A stretch of 20,872 bases of DNA, from positions 68,377-89,248 of the IMG/VR virus record IMGVR_UViG_3300023278_002223; one strand, given 5' to 3'. Shown piece by piece: positions 6,474 through 13,508 of the stretch (the first letter of the stretch is position 1; each line of letters opens with the position of its first letter). The position numbers and the translations under genes were made by a program. A model generated the notes under the pieces. That model did not search any database. It was given only the letters and a program-made list of their open reading frames with translations, and had not been told where the DNA came from. The stretch comes from a virus.

Positions 6474-7100
6474 TTAGCTCCAGGAGCCCTGGACACCATC
6501 TTCAGTGTCTTCTTCTTTGATCACCCTGTCGATGATTCCATAGCCGAGAGCATCTTCTGCGCTCATGAAGTAGTCCTTGGAGCAGTCTTCAGTCATCTCC
6601 TCTACGGTCTTGCCGCAGCGCTGAGAGAGAATTCGGTACAGGACGTCCTTGAGCCTTGTCATTTCTTCAAACGAGGTCTGGATGTCAGCTGCTGTCCCCT
6701 GGACGCCACCAGATGGCTGGTGAATCATTACTCTTGCATTCTCAAGGCAGTGTCTTTGTCCCTTGGTTCCGTTTGAAAGAATGACGGCACCCATCGAGCA
6801 CGCCTGACCCACACAGTAAGTCTTTACCTTGTTTGGGATTAGGTTCATTGTGTCTACAATGGCGAGCCCGGCTGTAACTGATCCGCCTGGGCTGTTGATG
6901 TAGAAGTCAATTGGCTGATTCTTGCCACTGGCCGAAAGGTGGAGAAGCTGTGCCACAATGCTAGCGGAGCTGTGATCATCCACCTGACCATTGAGGAAAA
7001 CGATTCTCTCCTCAAGGAGTCGGCTGTAAATGTCAAACGTGCGCTGCTCTCCGGCCTTGCCAACAATAACGTAAGGAATAACAGTGTTATTCGTCTCCAT
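6474..7100 (-). CDS. clpP: ClpP-type serine protease
   Basis: 208 residues, close to the usual size of ClpP. The catalytic triad is complete: Ser102 in GQACSMGA, His127 in MIHQP and Asp176 in KDYFM. The INSPGG loop (69-73) that forms the oxyanion hole region is also present, and the C-terminal DALGYGIID matches the family. Established role: a 14-subunit chamber protease, normally fed by ClpX or ClpA. No Clp ATPase is in the window, so it would use a host ATPase, self-assemble, or act with another AAA+ protein. Some phages use ClpP-like proteases to mature capsids, but no capsid genes are nearby. AGGAAGG lies 8 bases before the ATG at 7100. It is a single-gene unit with its own promoter and terminator. 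Confidence 0.95.
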   Translation of the reverse strand: METNNTVIPYVIVGKAGEQRTFDIYSRLLEERIVFLNGQVDDHSSASIVAQLLHLSASGKNQPIDFYINSPGGSVTAGLAIVDTMNLIPNKVKTYCVGQACSMGAVILSNGTKGQRHCLENARVMIHQPSGGVQGTAADIQTSFEEMTRLKDVLYRILSQRCGKTVEEMTEDCSKDYFMSAEDALGYGIIDRVIKEEDTEDGVQGSWS

Positions 7101-7314: not shown

Positions 7315-8187
7315 CTACTGAGACTCTGTCATGCTGTAAATAAAAGAAGTGTCTTCGCATTCTATAAAGTCTTCATCTAGAACGACACCGTTAGAGCCAA
7401 ACGTGTTTAGGCTGTCTCTGAAGTAGAAGTCTAGGTTCTCACTCCCAGATAGGCCCGATATGTTTAGCTCCATATATAGAACTTCTTGATGCTCTCCGTC
7501 TCCAAGAACCCAATAAGCACCACCCAACTGAATGCTGGACACCATCCCTAGGGACAGCTCGCCGTGAGAGAAGCCTCCAACGACAAGATCTGGACCCTGT
7601 CCGCTGTTGATGGCCATAGTCCAATCTGAAAGAACGAAATCCACCGGAATGACTTTCTCTGGGTTGAAAGCCAAAGACAGACTGATAGAACTAATGAGAT
7701 TAGAAGTCAGCCCGGTAAGATTGCTGGATGCCTTCTTGAGAAACAGCGGAACCTCTAGAGGGGTGTTGTCTCCAACTAAATACTCTATCTGGTCATTGCT
7801 GCCAAAGAAGACGAATCCGTTCGAGGTGTGAGCTTGGACCGCGCTGTTTACGGTGTACAAGCTTTGTCCTCCCGAGTTGTTCTCTGCAATTAAGGTTACA
7901 CTGTAGACACCTGGCTCTTGAAAGGTGTGAGTTGGGTTCGTCTCGTATGAGATCCCCCCATCGGAGAACAGCCATACAAAGTTAGCACCGAGATCATCTG
8001 TAGTGTTTGTAAATGAAACAGACAATGGGGCTTCTCCAAAGTTGGTGTCAAAGACAAACATGGCCTCAGGCACATGCTCCTCGTTTCCACCCTCGTTTCC
8101 ACCCCCACCTCCCCCTGAGCCTCCCCCACATCCCGTGGACGCCAAGACTGCAGAAATTGTAAGAGCTAACATTGCCTTGCTGAACAT
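7315..8187 (-). CDS. Lipoprotein with PKD domain and cohesin-like domain
   Basis: 290 residues. I take the ATG at 8187 because GGAG lies six bases upstream; an in-frame ATG at 8199 is poorly placed. A signal segment ends in lipobox ASTGC with Cys20, then a flexible Gly-rich linker (21-34). Residues about 40-118 form a PKD domain: F.W.FSDGG, NPTHTF and EPGVYSVTLIAEN are its hallmarks. Residues about 120-285 look like the beta-sandwich, cohesin-like domain (long alternating hydrophobic strands, SLAFNPEKV) seen in planctomycete secreted proteins; this second call is weaker. PKD domains usually mediate protein or glycan contacts. It is the last gene of the unit that also encodes dockerin-tailed proteins, so it could hold one of these at the membrane (inference). 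Confidence 0.82.
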   Translation of the reverse strand: MFSKAMLALTISAVLASTGCGGGSGGGGGGNEGGNEEHVPEAMFVFDTNFGEAPLSVSFTNTTDDLGANFVWLFSDGGISYETNPTHTFQEPGVYSVTLIAENNSGGQSLYTVNSAVQAHTSNGFVFFGSNDQIEYLVGDNTPLEVPLFLKKASSNLTGLTSNLISSISLSLAFNPEKVIPVDFVLSDWTMAINSGQGPDLVVGGFSHGELSLGMVSSIQLGGAYWVLGDGEHQEVLYMELNISGLSGSENLDFYFRDSLNTFGSNGVVLDEDFIECEDTSFIYSMTESQ

Positions 8188-8230
8188 TTTGAACTCCATA
8201 TCCTATGTTATTATGGACAGTTTATCGTCT

Positions 8231-8494
8231 CTACTGGTTGGTTTGTGGCTGTGGGTCTACTGGTGGCATTGGCAATGGAACAACGACTGGGTCGTCATCA
8301 TCGTCATCATCATCGTCACCATCGGAGATAGGAGGTGAGACAATTAGGTCTCCATTCTCGTCCATCTCTAGAAAGCCTACGCTTTGGTTTGTTGTGGTGC
8401 ATCCGCTGATAAGACCCAGCAGGAGCATTAGAAGAACAAAGATACCGATGCCAATTCTGATCTTCTGTGTCTTGTTTAGTTCAGAGTAGTTCAT
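8231..8494 (-). CDS. Small lipoprotein with poly-Asp tract (87 aa)
   Basis: 87 residues. A positively charged N-terminus (residues 1-14) and a hydrophobic segment end in lipobox LISGC with Cys32. The mature part is short: a stretch containing MDENGDL, a run of nine aspartates (60-68) and a Pro-rich tail. The Asp run is encoded by GAT/GAC codons and could vary in length. AGGA lies eight bases before the ATG. It sits between the cohesin-like/dockerin protein and the PKD lipoprotein in one unit. It resembles small entry-blocking lipoproteins of phages only in size and anchoring. The acid tract may bind calcium, which dockerin repeats need (inference). Confidence 0.75.
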   Translation of the reverse strand: MNYSELNKTQKIRIGIGIFVLLMLLLGLISGCTTTNQSVGFLEMDENGDLIVSPPISDGDDDDDDDDDPVVVPLPMPPVDPQPQTNQ

Positions 8495-8517
8495 TTTAAA
8501 ATCCTATTCTATTATTG

Positions 8518-9393
8518 TTATGGGCAGTTTGACAGCATGCAGCCGAGGGAGTCAGCAGTTCTATCATAATCACAGCCCGGAAAAGGTGCTTCTGGTGGCA
8601 GAGATCCTGTTAGGGAGTATCCCAAGATCAACATGACATCTGCGATGTTTAGCTGTGTATCATCATTGGCGTCTGCTGCGTCCTTGCAGAATATGCTGGT
8701 TCCAGAAAAAAGATGAGAGAGAAGAGCGACCCCGTCCGAGAGGGTGCATAGCCCATCAAGGTTGGCATCCCCTCTAACAAAGTCGATCACAACAGCTATG
8801 CTTCCATGTAAAAGCGTTGGCGTAACAGGCATTCCACCATTTATAGTGGCCTCATTGTACACCTGGGTGTACCCAATCAACAGCTCGGTGAAGCGTATGA
8901 CGGCAGTGTTCTGCCCAGGAATAGCAGTTGAAGCAATATTGTATTCGGCCTTCACCATTGGCTGATAAACAGGGGTAGCAGGTATTGTGTTCTGAGTCGC
9001 TGTCATATCCAAGATGCACAAGACCGCCAACCCATGGTTGGGTGAGTTCGTTGGGTTCCAAAGCCTGCTCTCGTAGTAGTCCGGACCCAACCCCCCATTC
9101 AGAGAGGCTAGGTATTCGCTTGGGCCCGCACCAATTACGGTCAGGGCTCCTCCGGAGTGATAAACATTCATTGAGAATGCATTGACTGGCTGACTATTCA
9201 ACATGCTAAGATCTATCGAAGCATACTCGCCTGCATGGCCGAACCCCCGCCCTGCCTTGAAGTAAACGCCCTGCTCACCGGGCCCTTGGGCACTGGCTGA
9301 ACCAATGTCTAGGGAGAGGACACACCCGACACAGTACGCAGCAAATGCTAGGAAGCAGGCAATCACAATGACATGTGCTTTTTGGCTAGTCAT
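8518..9393 (-). CDS. Secreted cohesin-like protein with C-terminal dockerin repeats
   Basis: 291 residues with a signal peptide (hydrophobic 8-25). Cleavage is likely after SASA near residue 36; a CVGC at 22-25 is a poor lipobox. Residues about 45-200 form a cohesin-like beta-sandwich of the planctomycete type. Residues 204-291 form a dockerin-like module with two EF-hand loops, DANLDGLCTLSD (209-220) and DANDDTQLNIAD (241-252), and the typical PPEAPFPGCD tail with paired cysteines. Dockerins bind cohesins in calcium-dependent complexes in clostridia; in planctomycetes the partner is not established. GGGAGGA lies just before the ATG. It is co-transcribed with the dockerin subtilase directly upstream (14-base gap). 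Confidence 0.85.
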   Translation of the reverse strand: MTSQKAHVIVIACFLAFAAYCVGCVLSLDIGSASAQGPGEQGVYFKAGRGFGHAGEYASIDLSMLNSQPVNAFSMNVYHSGGALTVIGAGPSEYLASLNGGLGPDYYESRLWNPTNSPNHGLAVLCILDMTATQNTIPATPVYQPMVKAEYNIASTAIPGQNTAVIRFTELLIGYTQVYNEATINGGMPVTPTLLHGSIAVVIDFVRGDANLDGLCTLSDGVALLSHLFSGTSIFCKDAADANDDTQLNIADVMLILGYSLTGSLPPEAPFPGCDYDRTADSLGCMLSNCP

Positions 9394-9407
9394 TTCGTCC
9401 TCCCTTC

Positions 9408-11363
9408 TTAACCGCAGAGGTAAGTGTTGCAGTCAAGACTGTCAGGAGTCGGATCTACTCCACAACTTGGGAATGGCGCTGGTGGAGTTGGATCCCCTGT
9501 GCCTGTTCCAAAGATGTAGTTGAGTGTCTGCATAACATCCGCAATGTTAATAAGCCCGTCATCGTTTGTATCCTGAGATGAGATACAGTCGCTGTTAGCT
9601 GCCTCAACGAACAGGTAGGTCAAGGTGTAGACGGCGTCTGACAGAGTGACGATCCCATCCTGGTTTCCGTCCGCCCTAACGAAACTGTTTCCCACGCCAA
9701 TTTGACCATTGGTAAGTGTTGGGATAACAACCAAGCCCTCAGCTAGGCTGAACTCAGTTCGGACGGTTCCGAAGATTGGGGTAAGGGTAAGAGCGGTGTT
9801 TGAGCCGCTTCCGCCTACGGCTTGGTAGTTGATATTGACCAAAGGTCTCTCAAACCCCTCAGCTGTAATTGGTAGGAATGTCTGAGGCGCTGCCATTGAC
9901 ATAACAAAGCCAACTACGGCCCTATTGGTGTAGGTCTGTGCCAACCAGAACTCTGGCTGGTTTACAGTTAGGTAGTCTAGCTTTGTGACGGTTTGGGCAG
10001 TGATGACTGTTGGGTCATTGACTACAACGAAGCTGAGTCCATAGACTTCAACATTGTTTGTCATGAAGACTGTCCCTGTGGCTCCTGCTGCTACGGCCAC
10101 AACCTCTCCTGTAACCTTAAGACTGTTGGCTACTGGTCCAGGACCGCCACCACCGCCTGCTGCGGCTAGTGCTGCTCCTCCATTGAGGCTTCCGTACGAG
10201 AAGGTGTCATCAAGACCTGGAGCACCCAGGTCGTCACAGGTTGACTTCATGATGTTGACTACTTCTGCGGCTGTTAGAAGTGGGTTGTGGGTTATAATCA
10301 AAGCCGCTAGTCCAGCAGCCTTTGGAGATGCATAGCTTGTACCGCTACCTGTTGAGGTTGCATTGTCCCCAGATGAGTGAGTGGAAACAACGCTGGTTCC
10401 TGGTGCGAAGAAGTCTACGGATTTTCCGTAAGCTGAGAAGGTTGACTTTGGGGAGGCTGTGTTGTTCTGAAGGGATCCAACAATCTGAATGTGATCGACA
10501 TCTCTATCGAAGCCCCCTCTGTTCATGTTGTCGTTTCCGGCACTCCAGAAGAGGATTGCATTAACAGAGTTTACATAGTCTCCAACAACCCTGTTGCTTG
10601 CTGCAAACACGCCACTGTATGACACGTTGACAACCCTGTCCCCAGAGTCAACAGCGGTCATGATGGCATGCTGTAGGGTGGAGATGTTTGAAGAGCCGCC
10701 TGTGGAGTTTGAAACTCTCATCATTCTGGTTCTAGCGTTGAAGTGAACGCCTGCGACGTTTCTGAAGTTATCACCCACAGCTCCGCTGAATCCGGTTGTC
10801 ATAGTTCCATGATAGTGGACTGCAGAAGTGTTTCCACCTTGAGACTCCCAAAGCCTGTCTACGGCATTGTATCCCTCTAGCTGCTTTAGAAGGTCGTTGT
10901 GGGTGGCTAGCACTCCAGTATCACAGGTTGCAATAACTACTGCATTTGGGTCGTTGACATCTCCTCGTTCGAGATCCCAAGCTGACTCCATATTCATCCA
11001 CTGGTGTCCCCACTGGCTTGAATATCCGCTGTCGTTGGGAACATAGGTTGGGAAGACTTCCCAGTTTGGCTCTACCACATCGAAAAGGCCAGTAGACATG
11101 AGTTCTACATAGCAAGTCTCTTCGTTATCGCCAATGGGAATATCCATGACGATGGTCCCGTTCTGGAGAATCTGCGTAGCACTCACGCCAATTGCGATTT
11201 GTGCAGCATCTTCTGATCCAGGGGTAGGAACACAGATCATTTGGCCTGAGAACTGTTGAACTCCTTGAATTTGAACGAACTGCTGAGCAGATGCGTCTTG
11301 TCCAGAGAGGCCAAAGAATAGAACCGCAAGAACTGCGGCTGCACTAATAAAGCTTCGGAACAT
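9408..11363 (-). CDS. Secreted subtilisin-family (S8) peptidase with C-terminal dockerin
   Basis: 651 residues from the ATG at 11363, which has AAAGGAG nine bases upstream; an in-frame start at 11432 lacks one. The signal peptide is cut after DASA (about 26). Residues 30-110 look like a propeptide ending near VVEPNWEVFP. The S8 core (115-405) has Asp148 in CDTG, His185 in HGT, oxyanion Asn277 in SAGND and Ser343 in GTSYASP, so all catalytic residues are present. A Gly-rich linker leads to a beta-sandwich (411-558) and a dockerin-like module (559-651) with EF loops DGNQDGIVTLSD (565-576) and DTNDDGLINIAD (598-609). The HGT motif lacks the usual following His-Val (HGTM rather than HGTHV). It is an extracellular protease, probably built into a complex through the dockerin (inference). 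Confidence 0.93.
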   Translation of the reverse strand: MFRSFISAAAVLAVLFFGLSGQDASAQQFVQIQGVQQFSGQMICVPTPGSEDAAQIAIGVSATQILQNGTIVMDIPIGDNEETCYVELMSTGLFDVVEPNWEVFPTYVPNDSGYSSQWGHQWMNMESAWDLERGDVNDPNAVVIATCDTGVLATHNDLLKQLEGYNAVDRLWESQGGNTSAVHYHGTMTTGFSGAVGDNFRNVAGVHFNARTRMMRVSNSTGGSSNISTLQHAIMTAVDSGDRVVNVSYSGVFAASNRVVGDYVNSVNAILFWSAGNDNMNRGGFDRDVDHIQIVGSLQNNTASPKSTFSAYGKSVDFFAPGTSVVSTHSSGDNATSTGSGTSYASPKAAGLAALIITHNPLLTAAEVVNIMKSTCDDLGAPGLDDTFSYGSLNGGAALAAAGGGGGPGPVANSLKVTGEVVAVAAGATGTVFMTNNVEVYGLSFVVVNDPTVITAQTVTKLDYLTVNQPEFWLAQTYTNRAVVGFVMSMAAPQTFLPITAEGFERPLVNINYQAVGGSGSNTALTLTPIFGTVRTEFSLAEGLVVIPTLTNGQIGVGNSFVRADGNQDGIVTLSDAVYTLTYLFVEAANSDCISSQDTNDDGLINIADVMQTLNYIFGTGTGDPTPPAPFPSCGVDPTPDSLDCNTYLCG

Positions 11364-11375
11364 TTGAAACTCCTT

Positions 11376-11394
11376 TCGAGGACTAGCGCCTCGA
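11376..11394 (-). promoter_or_regulatory. Leader hairpin directly before the subtilase ribosome site
   Basis: Perfect 6-bp stem TCGAGG/CCTCGA with a 7-base loop on the minus strand, ending one or two bases before AAAGGAG. It lies at the predicted 5' end of the transcript and may stabilise the message or modulate initiation. Confidence 0.45.
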
Positions 11395-11402
11395 CTAACA
11401 CA

Positions 11403-11432
11403 AGTATTCGCAACAGAACTTACTGTTGACAA
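11403..11432 (-). promoter_or_regulatory. Possible promoter of the subtilase
   Basis: TTGTCA (11432-11427) with AATACT at 18-base spacing (or GAATAC at 17). The -35 is good and the -10 is weak. It lies in the 117-base gap before the subtilase gene and would allow expression apart from the upstream deaminase. Confidence 0.35.
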
Positions 11433-11480
11433 TTATTGTTGGTGGAGTGACAAATGTCGTCCACCTCTCCATAATAGCAT

Positions 11481-12086
11481 TTAACGGAGAGGATTGAGTG
11501 ATTTCTTGTAGAAGTTATCAATTTCTGTCGGTGTTTCGCCGTGAATTGTCGTACCCTCTGTGACAAAAAATGGCTCAACAAGGTCTGCATAGTCGTCGAT
11601 GTTTAGTCCATATTTATAGGAAAGTCGAAGACTGTCAAGAATGACATTTCCAGACTCATCTTTACTAGAGCCAAAGTATCCATGCTTGTAGCAGTCCACC
11701 CACAACGAACTTCTTAAACCATCCTTTGTCGTAGTATTTATAAGTAGAATGCCTCTTACAATTCCTACTATGGAAACTTTGCCGGATTCCTCTCTCCTCA
11801 CCTTCTCGTCATACCTAAAAAAGTTTAAACGAAATAGGGATATTTCTTTAGAATCTTCGGCTTTTGGTCTGTAGATCTCCATTCGGATCACGATCTCGAT
11901 GCCCCACCTTGGGGCACCCCTAAGACACACGACAATAGTTCCGCCATCTAGGTAGGTGGCAGAGTATCTTTCTTTTCTTTGGTCTATTGAGGCCCTCTGA
12001 TGAAGGAGTGTGACGGCTCTGTCCACCCTAGAGTGCGGATAGTCGGAAAGCCTAAGCTTGTCTAGCCTATTGTAGTTGTTTGACAT
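11481..12086 (-). CDS. Unknown 201-residue protein
   Basis: Not recognised. I chose the ATG at 12086 because GGAG lies six bases upstream; an in-frame ATG at 12098 has none. This start lies within the end of the deaminase gene (20-base overlap), so the two are probably translated together. The protein is soluble, rich in basic and aromatic residues, with several beta-type segments (for example TIVVCLRGAPRWGIEIVIRMEIY) and no signal peptide. No catalytic motif is obvious. It lies between a nucleotide enzyme and the secreted subtilase. Confidence 0.65.
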   Translation of the reverse strand: MSNNYNRLDKLRLSDYPHSRVDRAVTLLHQRASIDQRKERYSATYLDGGTIVVCLRGAPRWGIEIVIRMEIYRPKAEDSKEISLFRLNFFRYDEKVRREESGKVSIVGIVRGILLINTTTKDGLRSSLWVDCYKHGYFGSSKDESGNVILDSLRLSYKYGLNIDDYADLVEPFFVTEGTTIHGETPTEIDNFYKKSLNPLR

Positions 12087-12468
12087 TTCCTTCTCCATCG
12101 GTGTAGTAGACAGTTTTTATCCCGTAAGACTTCAGCATCTTCTGACACTCGGAGCACGGCTTTGAATTGCCCAGGCTCCCATCGGCCATTGTCCTTGTAA
12201 CATACATTGTGCATTTGGTTGGGCAGACAGAGAGCTTCTTGACGGCATTGAACTCTGCATGAGGAAAGGGCCACTCGTAGTGATCGCAAGCCTTTGGGTC
12301 CGACTTGGTCATCGTGTTACTTGCCGTAGCCACAACTCTGCTTCCCAGGTAGACCACAGCCCCCATCTTGTATCTATCTACAGAGAGGGCGGCAGCCTTG
12401 GCTGCTGAGGCCATCCCTCTGTCTATCCTTTTGCTAGTAAGAGTCACTCTCCTGTCCCCCCATTGCAC
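12067..12468 (-). CDS. Cytidine/dCMP deaminase-family enzyme
   Basis: 133 residues from a GTG at 12468, which has GGAG ten bases upstream. A second GTG at 12447 overlaps the upstream stop as GTGA and is the alternative. It has the zinc deaminase signature: HAE (His70, Glu72) and PCSEC (Cys105, Cys108), with a central five-stranded fold pattern. dCMP deaminases make dUMP for thymidylate synthesis and are common in phages; cytidine or tRNA deaminases share the motif. The extra CPTKC (82-86) after the helix resembles dCMP deaminases. The family is sure; the substrate is inferred. It overlaps the end of the dockerin lipoprotein gene by 25 bases, an odd pairing of an exported protein with a cytoplasmic nucleotide enzyme. 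Confidence 0.85.
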   Translation of the reverse strand: MQWGDRRVTLTSKRIDRGMASAAKAAALSVDRYKMGAVVYLGSRVVATASNTMTKSDPKACDHYEWPFPHAEFNAVKKLSVCPTKCTMYVTRTMADGSLGNSKPCSECQKMLKSYGIKTVYYTDGEGNVKQLQ

Positions 12469-13508
12469 GTCAGGTTGTCTCCGTCAAGATCTTCTTCAAT
12501 GGCACCGAAACCAATGAACGGTGCGTCTGACCCCCAGAACACTCCAAGAATATAGATTGGGTCGCTCACATCGATTACTCCGTCGTCATTGACATCTTGC
12601 GCCTCGTAGCAGGTGGAGTCGACAACAGTGTGTCCGAAGACACCGTCAAGAAGGGTTACTGCGTCGGCAACATTTACCGTGTTGTCCTCATTGACATCCC
12701 CTCTAATGAACCCGCGAGAAAACACGTCGAAGAACTTAACGTAGTCACAGTTCTGGTCCAGAAGCTCGTAGCATAGATATGTAACCAAGTCCATCTCAAG
12801 GTACTCAGACTGGCTCACAATGCCAGCAACGTCATCCTGAATGGTGGTGTCCCCACCCCCAGAGACGGGCACCTCAGCGTCAGCACAGAGAGTCTCGGAG
12901 CAATCCCACCTCATCCGGCCACCAGAAGAGTTGAGCAGGAATGTTTTGGGCGATGTCAGCGGAGTGATGGCCCCACCAATGTTTTCTGTTAGACCGAGTC
13001 CATAGAACAGAACACTCCAGCCACACGGAAGCTTGTCTAGGTTGGCTCCACCCAGAGCCTCTTCAAGGCGACCGATTCCAGTTAAGGGCAAGCCATAGCC
13101 TCCCCTTGGGCCGTCCAAATCGAGACCCAGGGTCACGGTGCCAGGGCTGGGGTCTCCAAGCATGGGGGTTCCTGGAACCGAAAGATTGTCGGGAATAAAC
13201 CCACTACCAAAGAGAGTTCCACGGAATGTGACTTGGCCAGACTCGTCTTTGACGATTATTCTGATGGCCTTGTGTGGGTACTGTTCCCCCGCGCTGCTTC
13301 CGGTGCTGACTCTCGCTTCAAAGTCATCGCAGCAAACCCCTCCAGCCACATAGGCTTCAAATGGGCCGCTGTTGTCTGACTCCTGGTCAGCCTCCACCTT
13401 GTCCATGTAGGGATATCCAACCCGACAAAGGTCTTCTTGGGACGTGTCGACACCACTGGCGCATCCGGTTGCGGCCAGGATAAGGAACATTGCAAAAATC
13501 TTATTCAT
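12444..13508 (-). CDS. Dockerin-bearing lipoprotein
   Basis: 354 residues. A short signal ends in lipobox AATGC with Cys16, so the protein is predicted to be lipid-anchored. Residues 20-265 are an unrecognised, cysteine-containing domain with many Gly/Pro/Asp residues. Residues 266-354 carry a dockerin-like module: FIRGD, EF loops DVNEDNTVNVAD (271-282) and DVNDDGVIDVSD (305-316), and a terminal DLDGD. It is the first gene of the unit, behind a promoter about 45 bases upstream. The ribosome site is weak (ACGGAT). If its dockerin pairs with a cohesin-like domain of the neighbours, it could anchor them; equally, it may bind a host protein. Confidence 0.85.
   Translation of the reverse strand: MNKIFAMFLILAATGCASGVDTSQEDLCRVGYPYMDKVEADQESDNSGPFEAYVAGGVCCDDFEARVSTGSSAGEQYPHKAIRIIVKDESGQVTFRGTLFGSGFIPDNLSVPGTPMLGDPSPGTVTLGLDLDGPRGGYGLPLTGIGRLEEALGGANLDKLPCGWSVLFYGLGLTENIGGAITPLTSPKTFLLNSSGGRMRWDCSETLCADAEVPVSGGGDTTIQDDVAGIVSQSEYLEMDLVTYLCYELLDQNCDYVKFFDVFSRGFIRGDVNEDNTVNVADAVTLLDGVFGHTVVDSTCYEAQDVNDDGVIDVSDPIYILGVFWGSDAPFIGFGAIEEDLDGDNLTCNGGTGE

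Follow-up and report, generated by a model that had tools for sequence, protein, structure and literature searches.

What would a phage gain from carrying dockerin and cohesin modules? The question is raised by the final part of virus record IMGVR_UViG_3300023278_002223, a stretch of 20,872 nucleotides (bases 68377-89248, the end of the 89,248-base record) that was analysed in full and is called the window here. The source of the window is a phage. Four of its proteins (7315-8187, 8518-9393, 9408-11363 and 12444-13508) had been singled out in an earlier note, made from the sequence alone, as the possible parts of an anchored protease complex on the host envelope. All four reading frames are open at these coordinates on the minus strand, which carries every assigned gene of the window. 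The explanation that we favour, with a probability of roughly 0.58, is that a phage which infects a dockerin-rich order of planctomycetes docks its protease and lipoproteins onto a host-type surface cohesin-dockerin network.

The C-termini of 8518-9393, 9408-11363 and 12444-13508 had been described as two-loop, dockerin-like modules, and they were confirmed as type I dockerins of the planctomycete type. All six calcium loops of the three tails read DxNxD......D (D, N, D and D at positions 1, 3, 5 and 12), and four of the six have G at loop position 6. A profile built from ten tails, of which the window supplied two, matched solved dockerins with an E-value of 2.2e-9. A hidden Markov model (HMM) iterated on planctomycete tails, and seeded with the three window tails, recovered all three window proteins. 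In the AlphaFold model of 8518-9393 the tail had a predicted local distance difference test score (pLDDT) mostly above 93 and presented the expected two helices, at 218-230 and 250-262.

The protein 8518-9393 is a secreted, adaptor-like combination of a cohesin (about 8878-9228) and a dockerin (about 8539-8781), preceded by the ribosome-binding site (RBS) GGGAGG. The cohesin-like character ascribed to it was borne out at the level of the fold, as the best PDB matches of the model in Foldseek were all cohesins (probability 1.00, TM-score by target up to 0.61), with modest E-values of 1.5e-3 at best and a pLDDT of about 60-88 in the beta-sandwich. The phage proteins gave no direct Pfam match to PF00963, and the link to this family is indirect, through host-order members of the same domain family that are PF00963-positive. 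A second cohesin, absent from the account in the earlier note, is located in the subtilase ahead of its dockerin (hhalign probability 95, E 2.7e-8, by profile only). For the lipoprotein 7315-8187, which has no dockerin and is a possible anchor, the PKD part of the former description stood (PKD_4, E 5.2e-12), and the cohesin part is likely but weaker. Its C-terminal domain (7315-7845) matched the cohesin-like domain of a planctomycete protein (L170; E 3.2e-6), with an hhalign probability of 9% against the cohesin profile and a pLDDT of 31 in single-sequence AlphaFold; this would be the third cohesin.

The protease (9408-11363) is a secreted subtilase consisting of a signal peptide, an S8 domain (about 10191-10943; PF00082, E 1e-27), a cohesin-like domain (about 9795-10073) and a dockerin tail (about 9426-9683). 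Its start is the ATG at 11363, with the RBS AAAGGAG upstream, and the S8 triad is present (D171, H208 and S366, numbered from a TTG at 11432). Among subtilases of other planctomycetes, those that match the S8 domain best share 43-46% identity with it, and a dockerin was found in none of the 12 of these that were fetched. No S8 domain as close to that of the phage was found in the likely host order; remoter subtilases of that order do end in dockerin tails. Isolated phages yielded one remote S8 match, and viral contigs no close relative. Because the 12 S8 relatives fetched have no dockerins and no S8 domain that close was found in the host order, the tail looks like an addition to the protease. 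An enzyme of other origin would thus have received a host-type cohesin-dockerin tail, like an added address tag.

The phage-like nature of the stretch and the neighbours reported for these genes (clpP, MoxR, HNH and tRNAs) were all confirmed. The window encodes a phage-type MoxR ATPase, a VWA protein, ClpP, a dCMP deaminase and an HNH nuclease together with four tRNA genes, and the record beyond it encodes a tape measure protein, a DnaE-type polymerase, a primase, EF-G, signal peptidase I and a holin-like protein. A related phage was found in four records (L089-L092) and is collinear from the HNH gene to PurA and the lysis region. The core genes bordering the island are clpP (6474-7100; PF00574, E 7e-71; 64% identical to L092) and the dCMP deaminase gene (12067-12468; phrog_174, E 6e-19; 54% to L092 and 53% to L009). 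The gap between them is 88 bp in L092 and about 4,970 bp here. In it lie a gene for a 205-amino-acid (aa) protein and four nearly contiguous genes, which encode the subtilase, the cohesin-dockerin protein, a small lipoprotein and the PKD lipoprotein. A second relative, L009 (MoxR 47% and VWA 40% identical), with looser collinearity, is also without the island. As neither L092 nor L009 has it, the simplest reading is a gain in the present lineage, and the 88-bp gap in a collinear relative indicates that the island is phage-borne. It is an accessory island between conserved phage genes, missing in relatives, and its base composition and codon use resemble those of the phage core.

The earlier note had regarded planctomycete dockerin tails as mainly cellular. 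This is concordant with the 78 tail loci found in genomes, which show the tails to be overwhelmingly cellular and nearly all of which were in metagenome-assembled genomes of planctomycetes or unnamed bacteria; mislabelling or contamination may explain the few that carry other labels. With at most 150 candidates scored per genome, 59 to at least 150 dockerin tails were counted in each of eleven genomes, and 59-148 in each of the nine counted from one planctomycete order, that around G009 (here the G009 order). In 17 genomes of the G009 order, 26-113 cohesin-like domains were present per genome. PF00963 matched in all 17, above the cut-off in 15, and proteins with one or more cohesins and a dockerin are common in the order. 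Secreted planctomycete proteins of this kind (a 309-aa open reading frame in L178, and others in L171, L174 and L180) have the same order of signal peptide, cohesin(s) and dockerin as 8518-9393, but are chromosomal, and many have two cohesins.

Judged from sequence similarity, the G009 order is likely the best host candidate, because of three resemblances. In a comparison that covered planctomycete genomes only, the EF-G of the phage was 65-71% identical to that of the G009 order, 64-68% to that of a few other genomes and 42-59% to that of most remaining planctomycetes. The TSP3 repeats of the lipoprotein 38-1564 have 66-71% DNA identity to genomes of this order, and the phage tRNA-Arg gene is also similar to it. 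A DNA search of planctomycetes for protospacers or near-identical stretches returned, among the matches listed, essentially the similarity of tRNA, clpP and TSP3 repeats.

Dockerin proteins were found in at least seven other viral contigs (L006, L007, L008, L009, L010, L164 and L168). They are accompanied by phage genes in L008 (terminase, portal and head), L010 (major head protein and tape measure), L164 (internal virion protein and RecT), L168 (primase and helicase) and L006 (Sak4 and resolvase); the phage nature of L007, with DNA methyltransferase matches only, is less certain. L008 has two dockerin proteins, and its record also encodes a short lipoprotein. The proteins of L006, L007 and L097 and the second protein of L168 comprise little beyond a signal sequence and a dockerin. 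A search of viral contigs for the same gene set had been suggested; of this set the dockerin proteins were recovered, and close subtilase relatives and cohesins were not. The cohesin profile, which matches the window by construction, had no match in the other viral records. With no cohesin found in the other dockerin-bearing records, any docking there would be on host cohesins. The dockerin tail was matched in none of 50,697 phage records, and literature searches turned up no report of planctomycete phage dockerins. A dockerin-like gene has been noted in Vibrio phage VvAW1 (PMC3558961).

Three of these records offer separate observations. In L010 a large protein (7808-10183), with no obvious signal sequence, ends in a type I dockerin pair and adjoins the tape measure gene; it possibly belongs to the virion. 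The 108.8-kb phage record L168 has two tandem secreted dockerin proteins (7920-9698), one with an N-terminal dockerin. In L009 a dockerin lipoprotein is located behind a nucleotidyltransferase gene, a place taken by the TSP3 lipoprotein here and by a related lipoprotein in L092. A by-eye likeness of the L009 lipoprotein 10404-10991 to the N-terminus of 12444-13508 gave an E-value of 0.017 on comparison, and no relationship is claimed.

Planctomycete dockerin tails together with cohesin domains in a phage island make an anchored protease complex, as first proposed, anatomically possible. A host clade rich in the module and the seven other dockerin-bearing viral contigs favour docking onto a host network over a complex made purely by the phage. 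Given the domains, the signal sequences, the intact calcium loops, the catalytic triad, the phage context, the inserted island and a host clade with both partners, the following course can be proposed. The island products would be exported by the Sec route, perhaps with help from the signal peptidase I that the phage encodes. The lipoproteins 7315-8187, with its probable cohesin, and 12444-13508, with its dockerin, would sit in the envelope. The protein 8518-9393, which has one module of each kind, would serve as an adaptor, and 9408-11363 would contribute the subtilase with a cohesin and a dockerin of its own. Calcium-dependent cohesin-dockerin contacts would then join the phage proteins to each other and, above all, to the host surface network, and the phage protease would be positioned on the surface of the infected cell. 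The purpose might be to remodel the host surface by proteolysis in the late phase of infection, serving egress, receptor loss or the exclusion of other phages. This purpose is put forward with low confidence, ahead of peptide feeding, which ranks second.

Several points weigh against docking onto a host network by this phage. All three tails missed the PF00404 gathering score of 22.9 (17.0, 14.1 and 16.7 bits), as did the isolated C-terminal part of the subtilase (21.6 bits); cellular planctomycete relatives of the tails score near the same limit. The cohesin of the PKD lipoprotein depends on a single weak bridge. No phage protein has more than one cohesin, and any complex formed from phage proteins alone would therefore be small. 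The record itself is not complete, and the host has been deduced rather than observed. Finally, we infer the cohesin-dockerin contacts, as well as docking, export, localisation and activity, and the purpose is read only from anatomy.

The explanations that compete with docking onto the host network are all unlikely, to different degrees. In one, the planctomycete dockerin tail is chiefly a C-terminal sorting or anchoring signal and not itself a ligand of cohesins, and the phage uses it for host-like placement only. This would suit a tail that exceeds the classical dockerin in length, has a conserved C-terminal extension and is carried, in most of the genomes counted, by over 100 proteins. An NCBIfam model, 'GC-type dockerin domain-anchored protein', also exists, against which the subtilase scored just 15.6 bits (cut-off 29). 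The cohesin-like domains of the likely host genomes are, however, matching partners for the tails, and all calcium-binding positions have been kept; both points count against the sorting role.

No more probable is an auxiliary nutritional role, in which the island encodes a peptide-degrading machine of the host type that supplies the infected cell with amino acids and has no part in defence or exclusion. A peptidase-based cohesin-dockerin complex, the 'planctosome', has been put forward, as a proposal only, for freshwater Nemodlikiaceae (Andrei et al. 2019; PMC6461901), and genes of nucleotide and sugar metabolism are also present in the phage. The planctosome resembles the phage in having planctomycete cohesin and dockerin modules on peptidases, a cohesin-dockerin adaptor and TSP3 repeats. 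The island differs in being phage-borne, in having a subtilase and lipoproteins in place of the M12B/M14 peptidases and the LTD/P-domain anchor, neither of which is among the Pfam and NCBIfam matches of its proteins, and in that no HYR domain was seen. A single protease, moreover, would add little to the host's own set.

Still less probable is that the phage dockerins are decoys, which saturate host cohesins and dismantle host surface complexes, with the protease adding to the effect. The proteins of L006, L007, L097 and L168 that are almost only signal sequence and dockerin, in records where no cohesin was found, are what would be expected of decoys, but the window dockerins are attached to a protease or further domains and have cohesins alongside, and recruitment fits these better than blocking.

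A chimeric contig that includes host DNA, or host genes picked up recently and without selection, would accord with the overwhelmingly cellular distribution of the tails but is very improbable, and ordinary host chromosome, named in the earlier note as a refuting condition, was not borne out. Host contamination was rejected on collinearity and composition: conserved phage genes collinear with those of related phages flank the island on both sides, and its base composition and codon use are like those of the phage core. In addition, dockerin proteins recur in other phage contigs, and the S8 type differs from that of the host order.

A broader idea can be advanced only tentatively, at somewhat less than even odds. 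Planctomycete phages may repeatedly have taken up the host dockerin, as an address tag or a decoy, in order to plug into or jam the cohesin network. This would be an unrecognised phage-host interface, most completely represented in the present phage, which has cohesins of its own and a protease bearing the tag. If so, viruses exploit a bacterial modular surface-assembly system, and they would supply small, defined modules for testing the role of the numerous planctomycete dockerins and cohesins, which the planctosome proposal left open. The dockerin tail would double as a marker by which uncultured phages of the clade could be linked to their host.

Two further comparisons place the island among known systems. 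With the type I cellulosome, for example that of Clostridium thermocellum, it shares the two-loop calcium dockerin and, by Foldseek, the cohesin fold, but it is a phage island without a carbohydrate-active enzyme or a multi-cohesin scaffoldin, its sole enzyme is a protease, and docking is predicted. With the exported proteins of phage morons it shares variable cargo between conserved genes and lipoproteins with signal sequences; we know of none of these with cohesin or dockerin modules.

The remaining parts of the island and its surroundings are as follows. An Asp-rich lipoprotein of 87 aa (8231-8494) lies within the island, and the 205-aa protein (11481-12098), part of the inserted stretch, had no match in PHROGs or NCBIfam. 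The most likely start of the PKD lipoprotein is 8187. The lipoprotein 12444-13508 has its dockerin at about 12462-12710, recognised by its canonical loops and the dockerin HMM (PF00404, E 0.0087, below the cut-off). A second lipoprotein position is occupied by 38-1564, which has TSP3-like calcium repeats (TSP3_bac, E 0.009) and a relative in L089/L092 (E 9e-24). Its best BLAST match to the L092 lipoprotein covers 32 residues at 69% identity, and the motif CHNGRTIYVNYHAVQAHLNHGDTLGVC lies close to its C-terminus. Lipoboxes of canonical form occur in 8231-8494 (ISGC) and 38-1564 (VSGC); those of 12444-13508 (ATGC) and 7315-8187 (STGC) are weaker.

The phage is related to isolated phages only remotely, the best identities of its DnaE to theirs being about 30%. 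Elsewhere in the record are genes for a trypsin-like secreted protease, NeuB and glycosyltransferases. The signal peptidase I (L005:3208-3732, minus strand) scored 81 bits against TIGR02227 (cut-off 47) and is kept by the related phage (L092:17689-18210). The trypsin-like protease (L005:909-1862, minus strand) adjoins the gene for the holin-like protein and has a counterpart with 43% identity at L092:19594-20424. EF-G, a phage-encoded translation factor, is full-length with 691 aa (G000:35373-37448; L003:15373-17448, minus strand). Three neighbouring small membrane proteins are similar in two phages (G000:51901-53568 and L009:2010-3522), the middle one being TolR/ExbD-like by eye. NeuB, a NeuA-like cytidylyltransferase (by eye) and nearby glycosyltransferases at G000:38889-42903 form a possible phage surface-sugar cluster.

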